IMG/VR virus record: IMGVR_UViG_3300018428_000084
Coordinates: 1-34,869 of that record
Strand: one strand, 5' to 3'
DNA length: 34,869 nt
Source: a virus
Position 1 is the stretch's first letter. Every line of letters starts with the position of its first letter. Shown here piece after piece: positions 8,857 to 21,636 of this stretch. The translations under genes and the position numbers were made by a program. The notes beneath the pieces were generated by a model, which searched no databases, was not told the DNA's origin, and worked only from the letters and a program-made list of their open reading frames with translations.

Positions 8857-9050
8857 TTATCATCCAAAGGTTGAATTGAGCTGACCCACTCATCAGACAA
8901 AGGCTGATTTGTAGTCATCTGTGATTGGTTTTGTCCAATCGGTTTGTTTAGATTGATTGCCAACAGCGATAGCATAATACCGAAGACTATCAGCACAATG
9001 GCTAGACCAATCATGAAGCGGGTTGTTAGTATATGCATTAAGTTTATCAT
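8853..9050 (-). CDS. Possible overprinted small membrane protein inside the terminase 3' end
   Basis: A 65-codon ORF in a second frame over the last ~158 nt of the large terminase gene, running exactly to the portal start (TAA overlaps the portal ATG by 4 nt). GGAGG lies 7 nt before its ATG. The product has one strong hydrophobic segment (MIGLAIVLIVFGIMLSLLAI, residues 13-32) followed by a polar tail. The SD and the clean junction with the portal support a gene. Against it, the SD falls in conserved terminase sequence (RRQYND) and the hydrophobicity may be a by-product of the other frame. Confidence 0.3.
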   Translation of the reverse strand: MINLMHILTTRFMIGLAIVLIVFGIMLSLLAINLNKPIGQNQSQMTTNQPLSDEWVSSIQPLDDK

Positions 9051-10161
9051 TGTATTGCCTCCGATAATTTCTTAAACATTCTAAACCAAATTTTGTTTTG
9101 TCTTTATTAAAATACATGTTAGGTAATATTTGCCTAACAGCTTGAATGCCATCATCAACTGACATCCTTGGTGCTACAATTATGTCTAATCCAGCATTGG
9201 TTAAAACTTCTAATCTAGATTTACCTGTGCCTAATTCTCTTACATTTACATCATGAGGCAAGATATGCTGATAATCAAAGTAACCATTATCTTTGAGCCA
9301 ACCTACATAATGATCAAGTGATTGCCCATGGTTTTCATAATAATCCATAGCTCTATGCTCACCACTTGCTGTTTCCATGACCCAAATACTTGTGCTGTCA
9401 CTCATACCTAAATCCCAAGCAGTCCACTTTTCAGTCATATTCTCGCTAGCTATATCTCTGATATGGTTTCTTTCTTCTATTTCATTGAGTAGCTGACCAT
9501 AATAAGAACCTACAATAGGGCTGTGGAAATTGATCTCAAATTCCTGATTGAACTTGTCAATGCCCATCGCTTTTTTAGCACTATCTAATTCATCTTGAGG
9601 AATGATACCTGTTTGGCTTGCTTTAAATTCAATCAGTCCCCATTCGGAATCTTGTTCAGCCTGATCTCTTAACTTTTTAAAGTAGTTATCACCAGCTGGA
9701 GTTCCAATAAAGGCACACCAACCTTTTCGATCTGATAATGCTGGTCTGATGACTTCATTAAATAGACTTGGTGATATTTGCGCACACTCATCTACAATAC
9801 AACCATCTAAATAAATGCCTCGAAGTGAATCAGGGTTGTCTGCACCATAAAGTGATATTCGCCTTCCCATAAAATCAGCTCGAAGTTCAGCGATATTGAT
9901 TTCACAATCTAGGTTCTTTGTGTACTCTCTTAAATAGTCGAGACTAATTCTTTTTGCACTTGAATAAGTGGGTGCTATATAGGCGAATCTAGGGTTAGGC
10001 TTATCACAGTTTAATGCACTATGTATAAGTTGATTCAATGAAGCGACTGTTTTTCCAAACCTTCTATGACAAACTGCAACTGAAAATCTGTGCTTGGCAA
10101 TCATTTCATGGAAAGCCTTTTGGTATTTTCTAGGCTTATACCCTGTAGCTATGGTTTTCAT
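8893..10161 (-). CDS. Terminase large subunit
   Basis: A 422-residue DNA packaging ATPase/nuclease. A deviant Walker A motif lies at residues 31-38 (CHRRFGKT), Walker B and catalytic Glu are in GCIVDECAQ, and the coupling motif is in FIGTPAG. The RNase H-like nuclease half has an Asp in TAWDLGMSDS and a C-terminal HDWSSHCADSLRYYA motif carrying the last metal-binding Asp. Length is usual for TerL. It starts on the small terminase stop (ATGA overlap) and precedes the portal gene. It drives DNA into the procapsid and cuts the concatemer; a headful mechanism would fit a circularly permuted genome, but this is not shown. Confidence 0.92.
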   Translation of the reverse strand: MKTIATGYKPRKYQKAFHEMIAKHRFSVAVCHRRFGKTVASLNQLIHSALNCDKPNPRFAYIAPTYSSAKRISLDYLREYTKNLDCEINIAELRADFMGRRISLYGADNPDSLRGIYLDGCIVDECAQISPSLFNEVIRPALSDRKGWCAFIGTPAGDNYFKKLRDQAEQDSEWGLIEFKASQTGIIPQDELDSAKKAMGIDKFNQEFEINFHSPIVGSYYGQLLNEIEERNHIRDIASENMTEKWTAWDLGMSDSTSIWVMETASGEHRAMDYYENHGQSLDHYVGWLKDNGYFDYQHILPHDVNVRELGTGKSRLEVLTNAGLDIIVAPRMSVDDGIQAVRQILPNMYFNKDKTKFGLECLRNYRRQYNDKLNAYTNNPLHDWSSHCADSLRYYAIAVGNQSKQTDWTKPITDDYKSAFV

Positions 10162-10510: not shown

Positions 10511-10678
10511 TTATAACTCCTGAATAATAATAAATATTTGTCTCACCTCACATTTATCAGGGTTAGGTAATTGCTCTAACTTCTTGATTGCATGGGATTT
10601 ATGGACAAATAAACATTCTTGCATAGGTTGGTTATCATGTTTAGTAACTACTGACCATCTTTTAAATGTTGCTGGCAT
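10511..10678 (-). CDS. Small protein between methyltransferase and terminase, unknown
   Basis: A 55-residue ORF (MPATFKRWSVV...IFIIIQEL). It overlaps the methyltransferase stop by 17 nt and ends 5 nt before the small terminase ATG, filling what would otherwise be a 156-nt gap. Composition looks protein-like (charged, with one hydrophobic C-terminal strand), and its 3' end carries the SD of the terminase gene. No motif gives a function. Confidence 0.55.
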   Translation of the reverse strand: MPATFKRWSVVTKHDNQPMQECLFVHKSHAIKKLEQLPNPDKCEVRQIFIIIQEL

Positions 10679-11873
10679 CTATCTTTTCAGCCTTTTTACC
10701 TGTGAATTCTTCCCATCTTTGTATTATAACATCACAATATTTGGGGTCTAATTCCATCAGCCTAGCTGATCTGTTTGTTTTTTCAGAGGCAATTAATGTG
10801 CTACCTGAACCTCCAAAGAGATCTAAAATAATATTGCCATGGTTACTGCTGTTTCTAATACATCTTTCAATGAGTTCTATAGGTTTCATAGTAGGATGTA
10901 GTTCAGACTTTTTAGGTCTTTGTATATCCCACACATCACTTTGCTTTCTATCATCAACTTCTTTTAACCTAGGACTACCATTGAGCCAGCCATACCAAAT
11001 AGGTTCATATTTAGTGTGGTAATCTTTTCGGCTAATCACAAGGGTGTCTTTATTCCATATGATAGTCGATGACCAATGATAATCAGCTAAACTTAAAGTC
11101 AGCATACAATTGCCCCACTCTTGTGCTGACATCACCACATAAGTTGGACAACCTTTCTGACTGTATTGACTCATGTTAGTAAATACATTAAACATGAAGT
11201 CTTTGAAATCTTCGGTGGACATACTATCATTCATGATAGATCTGTCTTTATATTTGCCATTAGCTAAATTAGAACCATAGTCTACATTCCAAGGTGGGTC
11301 GGTGAATACCATTTCGGCTTTATCATCACCCATCAGTTTGGCAAGATCAGTTGAGGAAGTGCTATCCCCACACATGAGTCTATGATTGCCTAATTGATAT
11401 AGATCACCTAATTTGGAAGTAGGTTCTTCAGGTACTTCAGGGATTTCATCTTCATCATTATTGCCTTCAACTTGTTCAGGCTCTAATAGACTGTTGAGTT
11501 CTTTAGCATCAAAACCTAACTCAATTAAATCCACATCAAGATCATCTAGGTTTTTAAGCTCTAAAGATAACAGCTCTAAATCCCAGCCACTATTCATAGC
11601 TATTCGGTTGTCAGCTAGAATGAATGCTTTTCTTTGGGCTTCGGTTAAATGTTCTAACATGATAGTTGGAACTTCTTTTAGCCCTAATTTTTTACCAGCT
11701 AATAATCTTCCATGCCCAGCAATAATGCCATTGTCTTTATCTATTAAGATCGGATTATTAAATCCAAATTCTTTAATGGAAGAAGCTAGCTGTCCAATTT
11801 GTTTGTCATCATGAGTTCTTGCATTATTCACATAAGGAATAAGCTCATCAATGTTTTTGCTTATGATTTCCAA
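10662..11873 (-). CDS. ParB-domain / DNA methyltransferase fusion
   Basis: A 403-residue fusion. Residues about 1-100 form a ParB/sulfiredoxin-type domain (IIAGHGRLLAGKKLGLKEVP, FILADNR). Residues about 160-400 form an N6-adenine/N4-cytosine methyltransferase with motif IV first (VFTDPPWNVDYGSN) and the SAM motif near the end (NIILDLFGGSGSTLIASE), i.e. a beta-type permuted order. HPTMKPIELIERCI precedes the SAM motif, as usual. It is among the first genes behind the late promoter and just before the terminase, so DNA could be modified before packaging, most plausibly against restriction. Target sequence and base cannot be told. Confidence 0.85.
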   Translation of the reverse strand: MEIISKNIDELIPYVNNARTHDDKQIGQLASSIKEFGFNNPILIDKDNGIIAGHGRLLAGKKLGLKEVPTIMLEHLTEAQRKAFILADNRIAMNSGWDLELLSLELKNLDDLDVDLIELGFDAKELNSLLEPEQVEGNNDEDEIPEVPEEPTSKLGDLYQLGNHRLMCGDSTSSTDLAKLMGDDKAEMVFTDPPWNVDYGSNLANGKYKDRSIMNDSMSTEDFKDFMFNVFTNMSQYSQKGCPTYVVMSAQEWGNCMLTLSLADYHWSSTIIWNKDTLVISRKDYHTKYEPIWYGWLNGSPRLKEVDDRKQSDVWDIQRPKKSELHPTMKPIELIERCIRNSSNHGNIILDLFGGSGSTLIASEKTNRSARLMELDPKYCDVIIQRWEEFTGKKAEKIDASNI

Positions 11874-18536: not shown

Positions 18537-19079
18537 ATGAAATTATTAGTGAAAATTCAGCAAGAACTATCAGTCCCTAAAAATCAGCACAATAAGTTTG
18601 GTAATTTTAATTATCGATCATGTGAAGATATATTAGAGGCTGTCAAACCTTATCTTAAGGATGGGGCTACCCTCACCCTTAATGATGAAGTCAAATGCAT
18701 AGGCGATCAGTTATATATCGAAGCCACAGCAAAATTGTCACATAATTCCGAGTCAGTATCAGTATCAGCACAGGCTGGTATCAATACCATGCGAAAAGGA
18801 ATGGATGTAGCGCAGTCATTTGGTGCTAGTTCTTCCTATGCGAGGAAGTATGCTTTGGGTGGGCTATTCTTATTAGATGATAGCAAAGACCCTGACAGCA
18901 AAGATAACTCTGATCAAAATCAACCTCCCACACCTGATAGAGTAAAAGAGATGTTGACTAGCTTAGATGAATCAACCACCAAGGCTGATTTAGAAAAGAT
19001 ATTCAAATCATTTAGCCCTATTGAGAGAAAAGAGGTGAGAGCTTATGCAAAAGAAAAAGCCGAATCATTTAGCCGATAG
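18537..19079 (+). CDS. ERF-family single-strand annealing protein
   Basis: A 180-residue protein. The N-terminal part (LLVKIQQELSVPKNQHNKFGNFNYRS split as LVKIQQELSVPK and FGNFNYRSCEDILEAVKP) and the central MRKGMDVAQSFGASSSYARKYALGGLFLL motif (given as MDVAQSFGASSSYARKYAL) are classic ERF signatures. DDSKDPDS starts an acidic linker before a C-terminal helical tail. ERF proteins form rings on single-stranded DNA and anneal homologous strands. It overlaps the exonuclease gene by 35 nt, making a two-part recombination unit (SSAP plus exonuclease), suited to making concatemers for packaging. Confidence 0.85.
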   Translation: MKLLVKIQQELSVPKNQHNKFGNFNYRSCEDILEAVKPYLKDGATLTLNDEVKCIGDQLYIEATAKLSHNSESVSVSAQAGINTMRKGMDVAQSFGASSSYARKYALGGLFLLDDSKDPDSKDNSDQNQPPTPDRVKEMLTSLDESTTKADLEKIFKSFSPIERKEVRAYAKEKAESFSR

Positions 19080-19632
19080 TCGAAGAGACTCTATCATCAC
19101 AGCCTCACAAGCTTGGGCTGTGATTAATGATAGAAAAAAGCTTTGGCAAGAAAAGACTAAAAGAGCCTTACCTTTTCAAGGGAATGAGGCTACCGAGTAT
19201 GGCAATTTATTTGAACCCCATGCCTTAGCATCTTTTGAGGATGATCACAATTGTATTTTACAAGAAGGTGATCAATTATATGTCCATGAGGAACTCCCTA
19301 TTGGAGCCAGCCCTGATGGTATATATACCGAAGAAAAGGCTGTGGTGGAATGTAAATGTCCATTCACTCAAGAGTTATATTTAGGCATTCCTGACCGATA
19401 CCAATATCAGATGCAAATTCAGATGTTTGTAACAGGTTTTGAGAAAGCCTATTTTTATGTATGGACACCGACTGAAAAGTCGACAGAAATTGTGCCATAC
19501 CAACCTGAATTCATTAGCTGGTATATTCCTCTTGCGAAAGCATTCATGGAATTTGTAGCTAGTGATGTTGAGCCACCTCGGTGGACTAAAAAACCGAAGT
19601 GGAATTTTAAACTAAAAGAGGGCAACCTCTGA
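19045..19632 (+). CDS. YqaJ-type viral recombination exonuclease
   Basis: A 195-residue lambda-exonuclease-fold nuclease. RRDSIITASQAW, then EATEYGNLFEPHALASFE, IGASPDGI (catalytic Asp) and AVVECKCPF (E-x-K) show the PD-(D/E)XK core, followed by PDRYQYQMQIQMFVTG, as in YqaJ proteins. It should resect 5' ends to give single strands for the ERF protein. GAGGTGAGAG lies upstream inside the ERF gene. Confidence 0.88.
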   Translation: MQKKKPNHLADSRRDSIITASQAWAVINDRKKLWQEKTKRALPFQGNEATEYGNLFEPHALASFEDDHNCILQEGDQLYVHEELPIGASPDGIYTEEKAVVECKCPFTQELYLGIPDRYQYQMQIQMFVTGFEKAYFYVWTPTEKSTEIVPYQPEFISWYIPLAKAFMEFVASDVEPPRWTKKPKWNFKLKEGNL

Positions 19633-19642
19633 AGGAGACACA

Positions 19643-20386
19643 ATGATACACATTAAAGACAGTCGAAAAGTTTATGAGACTAAAGACTATAAAATATTTA
19701 AAACTTTAGATGGCAACAGACCTTTAAATCTGATGCATGTCAAAAGATTAAAACAATCGATAGCTGAAAAGCCCATCGACATTCCTATTATAGTGAATGA
19801 AAAGATGCAAGTCATAGATGGTCAGCACAGACTACAAGCTTTAAAAGAGTTAAATAAACCTGTGCGATACCTAAAAAACTATGGATTAGGATTGCAAGAT
19901 GTTCAGAAATTAAATACCACATCACAGAAATGGAATATGGATGCATATCTATCTAGCTATATATTATTAGGCTACCCTGAATACATCAAATATAAAAAGT
20001 TCTATGATGAATATGGTTTTAATCATAATGAAACATTAATGCTTTTAAGTGGTTACAATGGACAAGTGGGTGGCAATTATACCCAAAACTTTAAGGAAGG
20101 AAAATTTAAAGTTTATGATTGGGATGAATCATGCAAGAAGGCTACCAAGATTCAAATGTGTAAATCTTTTTATCCTGAATATAAAAGAAGAAGCTTTGTT
20201 TTAGCCATGATTCATTGTATGAAACACTCTGACTTTAATGTCAGCGAGTTCATTGCAAAAATGAGATACCAGCAAGGCAAGTTAAAAATTCATGGCACAT
20301 GGCAAGAGTGTGTGGCTATGATCGAAGATATATATAACTACAAGCGACCTGTTGGTGAAAGAATTGCTTTATCAATAACTATTTAG
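19643..20386 (+). CDS. ParB/sulfiredoxin-like domain protein
   Basis: A 247-residue protein with an N-terminal ParB-like domain: RPLNLMHVKRLKQSI, DIPIIVNEKMQVIDGQHRLQAL (split), then a helical C-terminus rich in Lys/Tyr (PEYIKYKKFYDEYG, KATKIQMCKSFYPEYKRR). The DGQHR motif is the conserved nucleotide-handling loop. Such proteins are frequent in phage recombination/replication modules; DNA binding is likely, the exact role is not known. GGAGACACA lies before the ATG, the same RBS style as at 21334. Confidence 0.75.
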   Translation: MIHIKDSRKVYETKDYKIFKTLDGNRPLNLMHVKRLKQSIAEKPIDIPIIVNEKMQVIDGQHRLQALKELNKPVRYLKNYGLGLQDVQKLNTTSQKWNMDAYLSSYILLGYPEYIKYKKFYDEYGFNHNETLMLLSGYNGQVGGNYTQNFKEGKFKVYDWDESCKKATKIQMCKSFYPEYKRRSFVLAMIHCMKHSDFNVSEFIAKMRYQQGKLKIHGTWQECVAMIEDIYNYKRPVGERIALSITI

Positions 20387-20399
20387 TGAAAGGAAAGTT

Positions 20400-20699
20400 A
20401 TGAAAATAGGTTTTAGTGCAAGTATAGATGTAACCAAAATCGATAAAAGTAAGTTGGTGGTAGGTAAGAAAGGCAAATACCTAAACATCACCAGCTTCTT
20501 TGATGTTCACAACAAAGACCAATATGAAAACAATGGAATGATCACCGAGTCAGTCTCAAAGGAACAGCGAGAGGCTGGACAAAGAGGAACCATTCTTGGA
20601 AACATTAAGGTGTTTTATGTGAATGATGATAATGGGGCTAGCAAAGATAATGCACAAGTAGAAGGTGCTGATTTCGGTGAGGATGAAGTCCCATGGTAA
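20400..20699 (+). CDS. Possible single-stranded DNA-binding-type protein
   Basis: A 99-residue protein MKIGFSASIDVTKIDKSKL... with a strand-rich body (GKKGKYLNITSFFDV, GTILGNIKVFYVN) and an acidic C-terminus ending DFGEDEVPW. An OB-like core with an acidic tail ending in a few hydrophobic residues, placed after SSAP/exonuclease genes, is what phage SSB-type proteins look like. There is no decisive motif. It overlaps the next gene by 7 nt. Confidence 0.5.
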   Translation: MKIGFSASIDVTKIDKSKLVVGKKGKYLNITSFFDVHNKDQYENNGMITESVSKEQREAGQRGTILGNIKVFYVNDDNGASKDNAQVEGADFGEDEVPW

Positions 20700-21136
20700 A
20701 TGGCTCTATGCCTTTTCATGATAGAATCTCGGTGGCTAATACTGCCGAGATTTTATTTCAACAGCATTTTGAAAGGCTAGGGTATCAAGCTACAAAGATT
20801 GGGTTTAATGAACAAGATCATCTACCATTCTTTTGGCAAATTAATCCTGTGGCTAGAAATATTCCTGACTTTTATATTGTCAATGATGATGGTAAATCAG
20901 GTTTGTTTCAGGTTAAAGGCACACCCAATATAAAAGAAATTGAATTTAAATTATTGCCTGACATAGTTAAGGCTTATCATTCCAATCGATGCCCATTGTA
21001 TTATGCATTTTGTTTTGAGGAATGTGAGCCAATCATTATGAGCTGGCAAGAATTAGTTAGAAGGTATGAGGAAAGTTTTGACCAATCTTATGAGGATGAT
21101 GGAAAGGTCTATCGAAGAATAAGAATGGGGGACTAA
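20693..21136 (+). CDS. PD-(D/E)XK-like protein, last gene of the rightward recombination operon
   Basis: A 147-residue protein. AEILFQQHFERLGYQATK is a typical N-terminal helix of restriction-like nucleases; RNIPDFYIV...GLFQVKGT has the order P-D...Q-V-K expected for the PD-(D/E)XK core with Gln in place of Glu. It could be a resolvase or repair nuclease. The final codons overlap a bidirectional hairpin terminator shared with the convergent pqqA gene. Confidence 0.55.
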   Translation: MVNGSMPFHDRISVANTAEILFQQHFERLGYQATKIGFNEQDHLPFFWQINPVARNIPDFYIVNDDGKSGLFQVKGTPNIKEIEFKLLPDIVKAYHSNRCPLYYAFCFEECEPIIMSWQELVRRYEESFDQSYEDDGKVYRRIRMGD

Positions 21137-21143
21137 GCCCCCA
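21126..21143. terminator. Bidirectional hairpin terminator between convergent genes
   Basis: TGGGGG-ACTAAG-CCCCCA is a perfect six-pair stem. On the + strand it closes the recombination operon (its stop codon is in the loop) and is followed by CTACTTATTTATT. On the - strand it lies 4 nt after the pqqA stop and is followed by TTCTTATTC. It isolates pqqA as its own transcription unit. Confidence 0.75.
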
Positions 21144-21147
21144 CTAC

Positions 21148-21219
21148 TTATTTATTCATGACATACATTGTTACTTCAAAGCCGAATCGCATTTCTTCTG
21201 CTGATGGAGTAGTCCACAT
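21148..21219 (-). CDS. pqqA: PqqA, precursor peptide of pyrroloquinoline quinone
   Basis: A 23-residue peptide starting MWTTP and containing RFGFEVTMY, ending NK. This matches the beta/gammaproteobacterial PqqA pattern MW..P....R.G.EVT.Y. Glu15 and Tyr19 are spaced E-x3-Y, the two residues that PqqE (radical SAM, with PqqD) crosslinks to build PQQ, the redox cofactor of methanol and other dehydrogenases. Length (22-24) is normal. AGGA lies 7 nt before the ATG. It is transcribed against the early genes, alone, with a candidate promoter and a hairpin terminator. PqqB-F are absent from the window, so host enzymes would have to process it. It is most likely a host-derived auxiliary metabolic gene. 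The motif is very specific, so chance is unlikely. Confidence 0.87.
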   Translation of the reverse strand: MWTTPSAEEMRFGFEVTMYVMNK

Positions 21220-21237
21220 AATATTTTCCTTTAAAGG

Positions 21238-21265
21238 TTGATTAAAAACTAAATTATACTATAAT
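21238..21265 (+). promoter_or_regulatory. Promoter of the second rightward operon
   Basis: TTGATT (21238-21243), 16 nt, TATAAT (21260-21265), 68 nt before the DUF3310-like gene. The -35 TTGATT is the same as in the late promoter at 12284. It overlaps the divergent pqqA leader, so the two units may influence each other. Confidence 0.6.
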
Positions 21266-21287
21266 AGGTCAAATTAATAGGCACCAA
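21258..21287 (-). promoter_or_regulatory. Candidate pqqA promoter
   Basis: On the - strand TTGGTG (21287-21282), 18 nt, TATAGT (21263-21258), about 38 nt before the pqqA start. The -10 is good, the -35 only half consensus. The AT-rich core (ATTATACTATAATA) gives -10-like sequences on both strands, so the exact start is uncertain. Confidence 0.4.
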
Positions 21288-21333
21288 AAGATTGAGTTTG
21301 ATCTAATGAAATGTATGAGTTAAGGAGACACAT

Positions 21334-21636
21334 ATGGAAGCAGAAGACTTAATACTACCTAAATATTATAGAGTGACAGATGGATTAGAACTGCAAGATT
21401 TATTAGCATTACTCACCAAAGACTTAAGTGGTGTAGAGGCAGTCAATATTGGTTCAGTCATTAAGTATATCATTCGCTATGGGAAGAAACATCCCACCCC
21501 TCAAGGCAAAATAGAAACACTAGATAAAATGATTAATTATTTAGTGCTTACCAAAATTCAAGTGGAAAAAGAAATCAAAAGCCCAGCTGTGATGCCTAGC
21601 GAATGGGAAGATGACCCTCTGCATGATGAAGATTAA
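21334..21636 (+). CDS. DUF3310-like protein
   Basis: A 100-residue protein. PKYYRVTDGLELQDLLALL, then VNIGSVIKYIIRYGKK and IETLDKMINYLVL match the DUF3310 pattern (.hY...g.E..D.......f..GN.iKYi.R...K......DL.Ka..Yl). The family is widespread in phages, sometimes labelled nucleotide kinase-like, but its activity is not established. It is the first gene behind the 21238 promoter, with AAGGAGACA upstream. Confidence 0.75.
   Translation: MEAEDLILPKYYRVTDGLELQDLLALLTKDLSGVEAVNIGSVIKYIIRYGKKHPTPQGKIETLDKMINYLVLTKIQVEKEIKSPAVMPSEWEDDPLHDED

Follow-up and report, generated by a model that had tools for sequence, protein, structure and literature searches.

The pqqA locus

The window, by which we mean the whole stretch of 34,869 bases analysed here, is a virus record with phage genes throughout: terminase, portal, scaffold, structural protein, tail fibre, Erf, YqaJ and a DNA polymerase exonuclease subunit. 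On its minus strand lies a very short gene that encodes a PqqA peptide. The features that the argument depends on are as follows.

21148..21219, minus strand: pqqA, 23 codons and a stop, peptide MWTTPSAEEMRFGFEVTMYVMNK, with matches to PF08042 and TIGR02107
21227..21232, minus strand: Shine-Dalgarno-like AAAGGA, 7 bases upstream of the pqqA ATG, read from the sequence
21124..21145, minus strand: intrinsic terminator hairpin AGTGGGGGCTTAGTCCCCCATT with a T-rich tail, 2 nt past the pqqA stop, from a computed fold
21233..21333, no strand assigned: intergenic region between pqqA and the divergent gene at 21334, a candidate pqqA promoter region if the gene is transcribed alone
20693..21136, plus strand: convergent neighbour, 147 aa, function unassigned
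21334..21636, plus strand: divergent neighbour, 100 aa, DUF3310-like (PF11753, 25 bits against a cut-off of 24)
18537..19632, plus strand: Erf-like annealing protein and YqaJ/RecE-like exonuclease, a recombination module near pqqA
8893..10161, minus strand: terminase large subunit, 58% identical to that of the OM43 phage Venkman
6781..8856, minus strand: portal protein, 53% identical to Venkman's

The gene is read from 21219 down to 21148, and the plus strand is not open there. The first-pass annotation described a 23-codon gene with a Shine-Dalgarno sequence and with Glu15 and Tyr19 in the E-x3-Y spacing. The sequence confirms all of this and adds the strand, which had been left unstated. The cross-link is expected to join Glu15 and Tyr19. 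The identity proposed for the peptide also holds up under profile searches. Its score against Pfam PF08042 is 41.4 bits (E 1.3e-10, model positions 1-19 of 19, cut-off 21.1) and against NCBIfam TIGR02107 38.1 bits (model positions 1-21 of 21, cut-off 20), so it belongs to the PqqA family by full-model matches above the curated cut-offs. It is the only PqqA in the whole 34,869-base record. In the window a loose PqqA motif has one occurrence and 500 whole-window shuffles contain none; this control together with the PF08042 match rules out a chance open reading frame. No PDB relative was found.

The terminator hairpin folds at -15.4 kcal/mol (z -3.9) and may also terminate the convergent gene at 20693-21136. 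Both neighbours are antisense to pqqA. We found no sigma-70-like promoter for the gene on the minus strand of 21233..21333, and no excess of promoters over shuffles.

The carrier phage and its host

Bacterial contamination as the source of pqqA is ruled out by the phage genes that run throughout the window. The gene lies in a genuine phage genome and is found in cultured phages as well. We group the window phage with the OM43 phage Venkman because of the terminase and portal identities given above, and from its relatives we infer that its host is a member of the Methylophilaceae of the OM43/LD28 type. A methylotroph host had been guessed before any search was made; the hosts of the cultured relatives and the near identity of the peptide to Methylophilaceae PqqA both back that guess. 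The window phage encodes none of pqqB-E, and no PQQ alcohol dehydrogenase or methanol dehydrogenase is present in the window. A search with a neighbouring gene for syntenic relatives recovered a single other contig, identical over 2,400 bases, so no syntenic series can be had for this locus. The window also encodes two ParB-like proteins: the one at 10662-11873 combines a ParB-like nuclease and a DNA methyltransferase in a single protein (phrog_498), and the other lies at 19643-20386.

pqqA among named phages

A tblastn search of 50,697 phage records with the window peptide matched 12 of them: nine records of Methylophilales phages, one Manatee Spring virus and two contigs labelled 'Acinetobacter phage'. 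PqqA queries of the Acinetobacter and Klebsiella types returned the same 12 records from this collection and none beyond them. The nine methylophage records are P19250A (a Methylophilaceae phage), Venkman, MEP301, MEP401, MEP402 and four Melnitz isolates. They were recognised through their pqqA, and the spread of the gene has to be read with this ascertainment in mind. MEP431-434, HIM624-A, phiMB624-A and Venkman EXVC038S are named in the NCBI taxonomy and stand outside the count; Venkman EXVC038S has no DNA match in the phage collection and MEP431-434 are absent among the terminase matches listed. Every published Methylophilales phage that could be checked carries pqqA.

The pqqA of P19250A has 23 codons (KX815270.1 28085-28153) and is 91% identical to that of the window. 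No annotated feature lies under the match in P19250A, Venkman, MEP301, MEP401 or MEP402. In Melnitz and the spring virus the match is overlain by a call of 'hypothetical protein', which runs on the opposite strand at both of the loci that were inspected. The 'hypothetical proteins' opposite the pqqA strand at L007 3961-4056 and L004 2067-2195 are probably false calls. Venkman EXVC282S is of the same lineage as the window and its pqqA is likewise antisense to the surrounding early genes, but its own copy is unannotated and goes unmentioned in the Venkman paper (PMC8163748). The papers searched on MEP301, MEP401/402 and Melnitz do not mention pqqA either.

The contigs labelled 'Acinetobacter phage MD-2021a' were dropped as phage carriers since they are apparently bacterial. 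One was inspected, and it has pqqB, C, D and E directly behind the pqqA match, so we take it to be bacterial. CAKLQF020000010.1, filed as a phage under this name, carries a polyphosphate kinase along with pqqABCDE and looks bacterial.

Blastp finds no meaningful similarity among the window/Venkman, MEP301, P19250A and MEP402 lineages in either terminase or portal, and Melnitz, a 141-kb T4-like phage, is a further carrier lineage. By terminase, the window is closest among named phages to the spring virus and Venkman, which both carry pqqA, and after them come SAR11 phages such as HTVC010P. For MEP301 the closest is the SAR11 phage Hodr; for MEP402 they are MEP401 and a spring virus, followed by Vibrio and Lentibacter phages. 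None of the three PqqA queries has a match in those SAR11, Vibrio and Lentibacter phages. Thus pqqA tracks the host and not the phage lineage, because its carriers are unrelated by terminase and portal and their nearest SAR11-infecting relatives are without it. The gene was gained by, or exchanged among, at least four and probably five phage lineages; 72 nt is too short to separate independent gain from exchange between phages. Records fetched by terminase for three lineages have pqqA in 16 of 40 cases, and in 11 of the 19 that are at least 30 kb long, in a set where some records are fragments and some may infect other hosts. A tail-fibre stretch of Venkman (L274 9330-12557 of the queried stretch) has 76-83% DNA identity to the otherwise unrelated MEP401 and MEP402, which looks like a sign of exchange between OM43 phages.

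Viral copies in metagenomes

IMG/VR holds more than 120 further stand-alone viral copies of pqqA. A DNA pattern for GFEVTMY finds at least 120 loci there, each of which reads as a short PqqA-like frame, and a second pattern, with the N-terminal half fixed and codons 15-23 left free, finds at least 120 as well. Among the matches listed for the second pattern, all 128 viral genes have the same length and keep Glu15 and Tyr19 without exception. Third positions vary freely and pN/pS over codons 15-23 is 0.13. Part of this pooled 128-gene set was first fetched with the GFEVTMY pattern, which tilts the picture somewhat toward conservation; even so, the variant tails EVTLY and EITMY keep both the E and the Y. 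Loss of the E-x3-Y spacing or of the frame in relatives had been named at the outset as what would speak against a PqqA, and neither was seen. The first-pass annotation also took the gene to be a phage-borne auxiliary gene. That reading is supported by the genuine phage genome, the host-like peptide and the pN/pS, the last two of which indicate a host-derived metabolic gene kept under purifying selection.

A Shine-Dalgarno-like motif is present at all 151 of the located viral genes. A terminator follows the stop at 56 of 149 viral loci, as against 1.3% of base shuffles. Both neighbours are antisense to pqqA in 48 loci and both are co-directional in 42. No more than 5 kb separates pqqA from a recombination gene in 58 of 151 loci, the majority of which end early at contig ends. 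That the rest of the pathway is missing, as first claimed for the window, extends to the viral loci in general: none has pqqB-E apart from the Acinetobacter-labelled contig, and no PqqD scores above cut-off in 22 carrier records. Linkage to pqqBCDE is usual for PqqA without strictly defining it, and the viral loci do not have it. A methanol dehydrogenase is found in 1 of 39 carrier records.

The viral contig IMGVR_UViG_3300025120_009955 (G053; L553-L556; 72,356 bases) carries pqqA about 6 kb from two dehydrogenase genes. One encodes a full-length PQQ methanol-type dehydrogenase, scoring 608 bits (cut-off 480), and the other the alpha subunit of a formate dehydrogenase, scoring 885 bits (cut-off 666); the contig apparently holds a set of genes that would boost methanol and formate oxidation. 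We take it to be viral because of its ribonucleotide reductase, phage-type DNA ligase, endolysin and weak tail-fibre match and its listing in IMG/VR; the tested proteins include neither a capsid nor a terminase. It resembles the T4-like viruses from Lake Baikal (PMC7678222). DnaK, an IbpA-like chaperone, GroEL and CsgG are encoded on it as well.

Host genes and earlier reports

In cellular genomes the pattern MRFGFEVTMY is found mostly in methylotrophs, above all in the Methylophilaceae and Methylophaga. The peptide seen most often in the Methylophilaceae, MWTTPAATEMRFGFEVTMYVMNK, is likewise the most frequent one among the viruses. Methylophilaceae PqqA has the same length, the same core EMRFGFEVTMYVMNK and the same spacing of Glu15 and Tyr19 as the window peptide. 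The window copy differs in being phage-encoded without pqqBCDE and in having Ser6 and Glu8 in place of the Ala and Thr of the host consensus.

Within the host family pqqA is present in 149 of 150 genomes, with a mean of 4.2 copies and as many as 12, and 85 of the 119 host loci that were fetched have no detected pqqB-E neighbour. Stand-alone copies are usual in the Methylophilaceae. Published genomes have 3-12 copies of pqqA but typically only one set of the remaining pqq genes (PMC4109929). Of the five copies in one methylotroph, the two most transcribed include a stand-alone one (PMC9851590), and the same paper cites the conversion of purified PqqA to PQQ by cell extract. The hosts themselves thus apparently favour an extra dose of pqqA.

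The first-pass annotation left open whether a phage pqqA had been reported before, and it has. Coutinho et al. (2020) proposed pqqA as an auxiliary gene alongside methanol dehydrogenase in the Lake Baikal virus population VP_266 (PMC7678222), and a list of viral genes from reservoir sediments published in 2026 includes pqqA, pqqD and pqqE (PMC13188868). VP_266 is like the window in its phage-borne pqqA, in its predicted Methylophilaceae host and in the role proposed, but it is T4-like and has methanol dehydrogenase, whereas the window phage is Venkman-like, 35 kb long, and carries pqqA by itself. According to the Baikal paper, P19250A has none of the methylotroph auxiliary genes that it describes (PMC7678222). 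Contrary to this, P19250A does carry pqqA. No report of a general association of pqqA with methylophages was found in the literature searched, which took in a minority of the subscription journals and no bioRxiv preprints. The idea itself is already published; what is new is the window member and the breadth of the distribution, which is far wider and more host-specific than reported.

The role of phage PqqA

PqqA is consumed in PQQ synthesis, one peptide for each cofactor, so what a phage copy contributes is substrate and not enzyme. We believe it is likely that the phage supplies extra PqqA to the host PqqBCDE and so sustains the PQQ-dependent methanol dehydrogenase, with expression, processing and benefit all predicted. 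During infection the phage-made PqqA would be bound and cross-linked, Glu15 to Tyr19, by the host PqqD and PqqE, and the remaining host enzymes would trim and oxidise the cross-linked peptide to PQQ. The extra PQQ would keep methanol dehydrogenase (XoxF/MxaF) loaded, so methanol oxidation and the energy supply would persist during host gene shutdown. The presence of pqqA in every published Methylophilales phage that could be checked suggests that methylotroph phages commonly help the host to keep oxidising methanol while they replicate. Cyanophage auxiliary genes of the psbA type are host-gene copies thought to sustain host energy metabolism during infection. Phage pqqA is like them in being a host-gene copy for host energy metabolism, but PqqA is a consumed precursor and not an enzyme or a lasting protein.

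The peptide might be made into PQQ as we propose and yet pay off elsewhere, through another quinoprotein, through redox protection or through product released on lysis. PQQ does have other uses in general, and the window has no PQQ alcohol dehydrogenase of its own, which speaks for this idea. However, pqqA among the named phages is confined to those of methylotroph hosts, and the dehydrogenase carried with it in G053 and the Baikal viruses (PMC7678222) is of the methanol type, and we regard a benefit outside methanol oxidation as unlikely. Co-carriage with methanol dehydrogenase also points to support of the pathway and away from a decoy or inhibitor that occupies host PqqD and PqqE and blocks PQQ synthesis. 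A PqqA homologue would bind both proteins and a viral metabolic block is conceivable, but an inhibitor should lose or alter the Glu or the Tyr. Because the reactive residues never change in viral PqqA, and the core is kept in every copy, we find a decoy very hard to credit; many viral peptides are exactly equal to the host peptide.

The same conservation bears on whether pqqA is simply a neutral passenger from the host with no effect on infection. Its small size and patchy occurrence among relatives would suit a passenger, but a pN/pS of about 0.13 with abundant synonymous change reflects purifying selection and contradicts this, and the at least four unrelated lineages that carry the gene have only the host guild in common. 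We give the idea very little weight. Phages that integrate at tRNA genes restore them with their own copy, and a phage that integrates into host pqqA might carry its pqqA as an attachment site for the same purpose. The hosts offer many scattered copies, five viral genes match a host gene exactly over 66 nt, and records of the MEP301 type have a serine recombinase. But a tyrosine integrase is found in 0 of 37 carrier records tested, the window included, and the window has no serine recombinase, so this role is highly improbable; the window gene is moreover at most 86% identical to any sampled host pqqA and has a Shine-Dalgarno sequence and terminator of its own.

We therefore keep to the supply of precursor to the host pathway as our reading of the gene. 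Somewhat more cautiously, we lean toward the wider view that stand-alone pqqA is a signature gene of Methylophilaceae phages at large, one that at least five unrelated virion lineages have gained or exchanged and that has escaped notice since gene callers pass over so short a frame. As such it would deliver a consumed peptide substrate and not an enzyme, and would mark the supply of PQQ precursor as a bottleneck in infected methylotrophs. Methylotrophs turn over methanol in lakes and coastal seas, and if methylophages routinely carry the PQQ precursor for methanol dehydrogenase then infection feeds methanol oxidation. A precursor-supply limit on the energy metabolism of infected cells becomes testable in cultured phage-host pairs. 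The 72-nt gene may also serve as a marker that assigns uncultured viruses to methylotroph hosts, and its recognition corrects the annotation of published methylophages along with one published statement.

Some minor observations concern individual carriers. The serine recombinase lies at 944-1360 in L272 (MEP301) and is also present in G009, G011 and G016, where it would fit a temperate phage or an inversion system. A viral contig of jumbo size (L249, IMGVR_UViG_3300023174_000036, 356,312 bases) carries a pqqA whose peptide is MWTKPTAQEMRFGFEITMYVMNR. Finally, a divergent group of 23-residue viral PqqA peptides (L011, L020, L025, L031, L035 and L032) may come from phages of other PQQ-making hosts.
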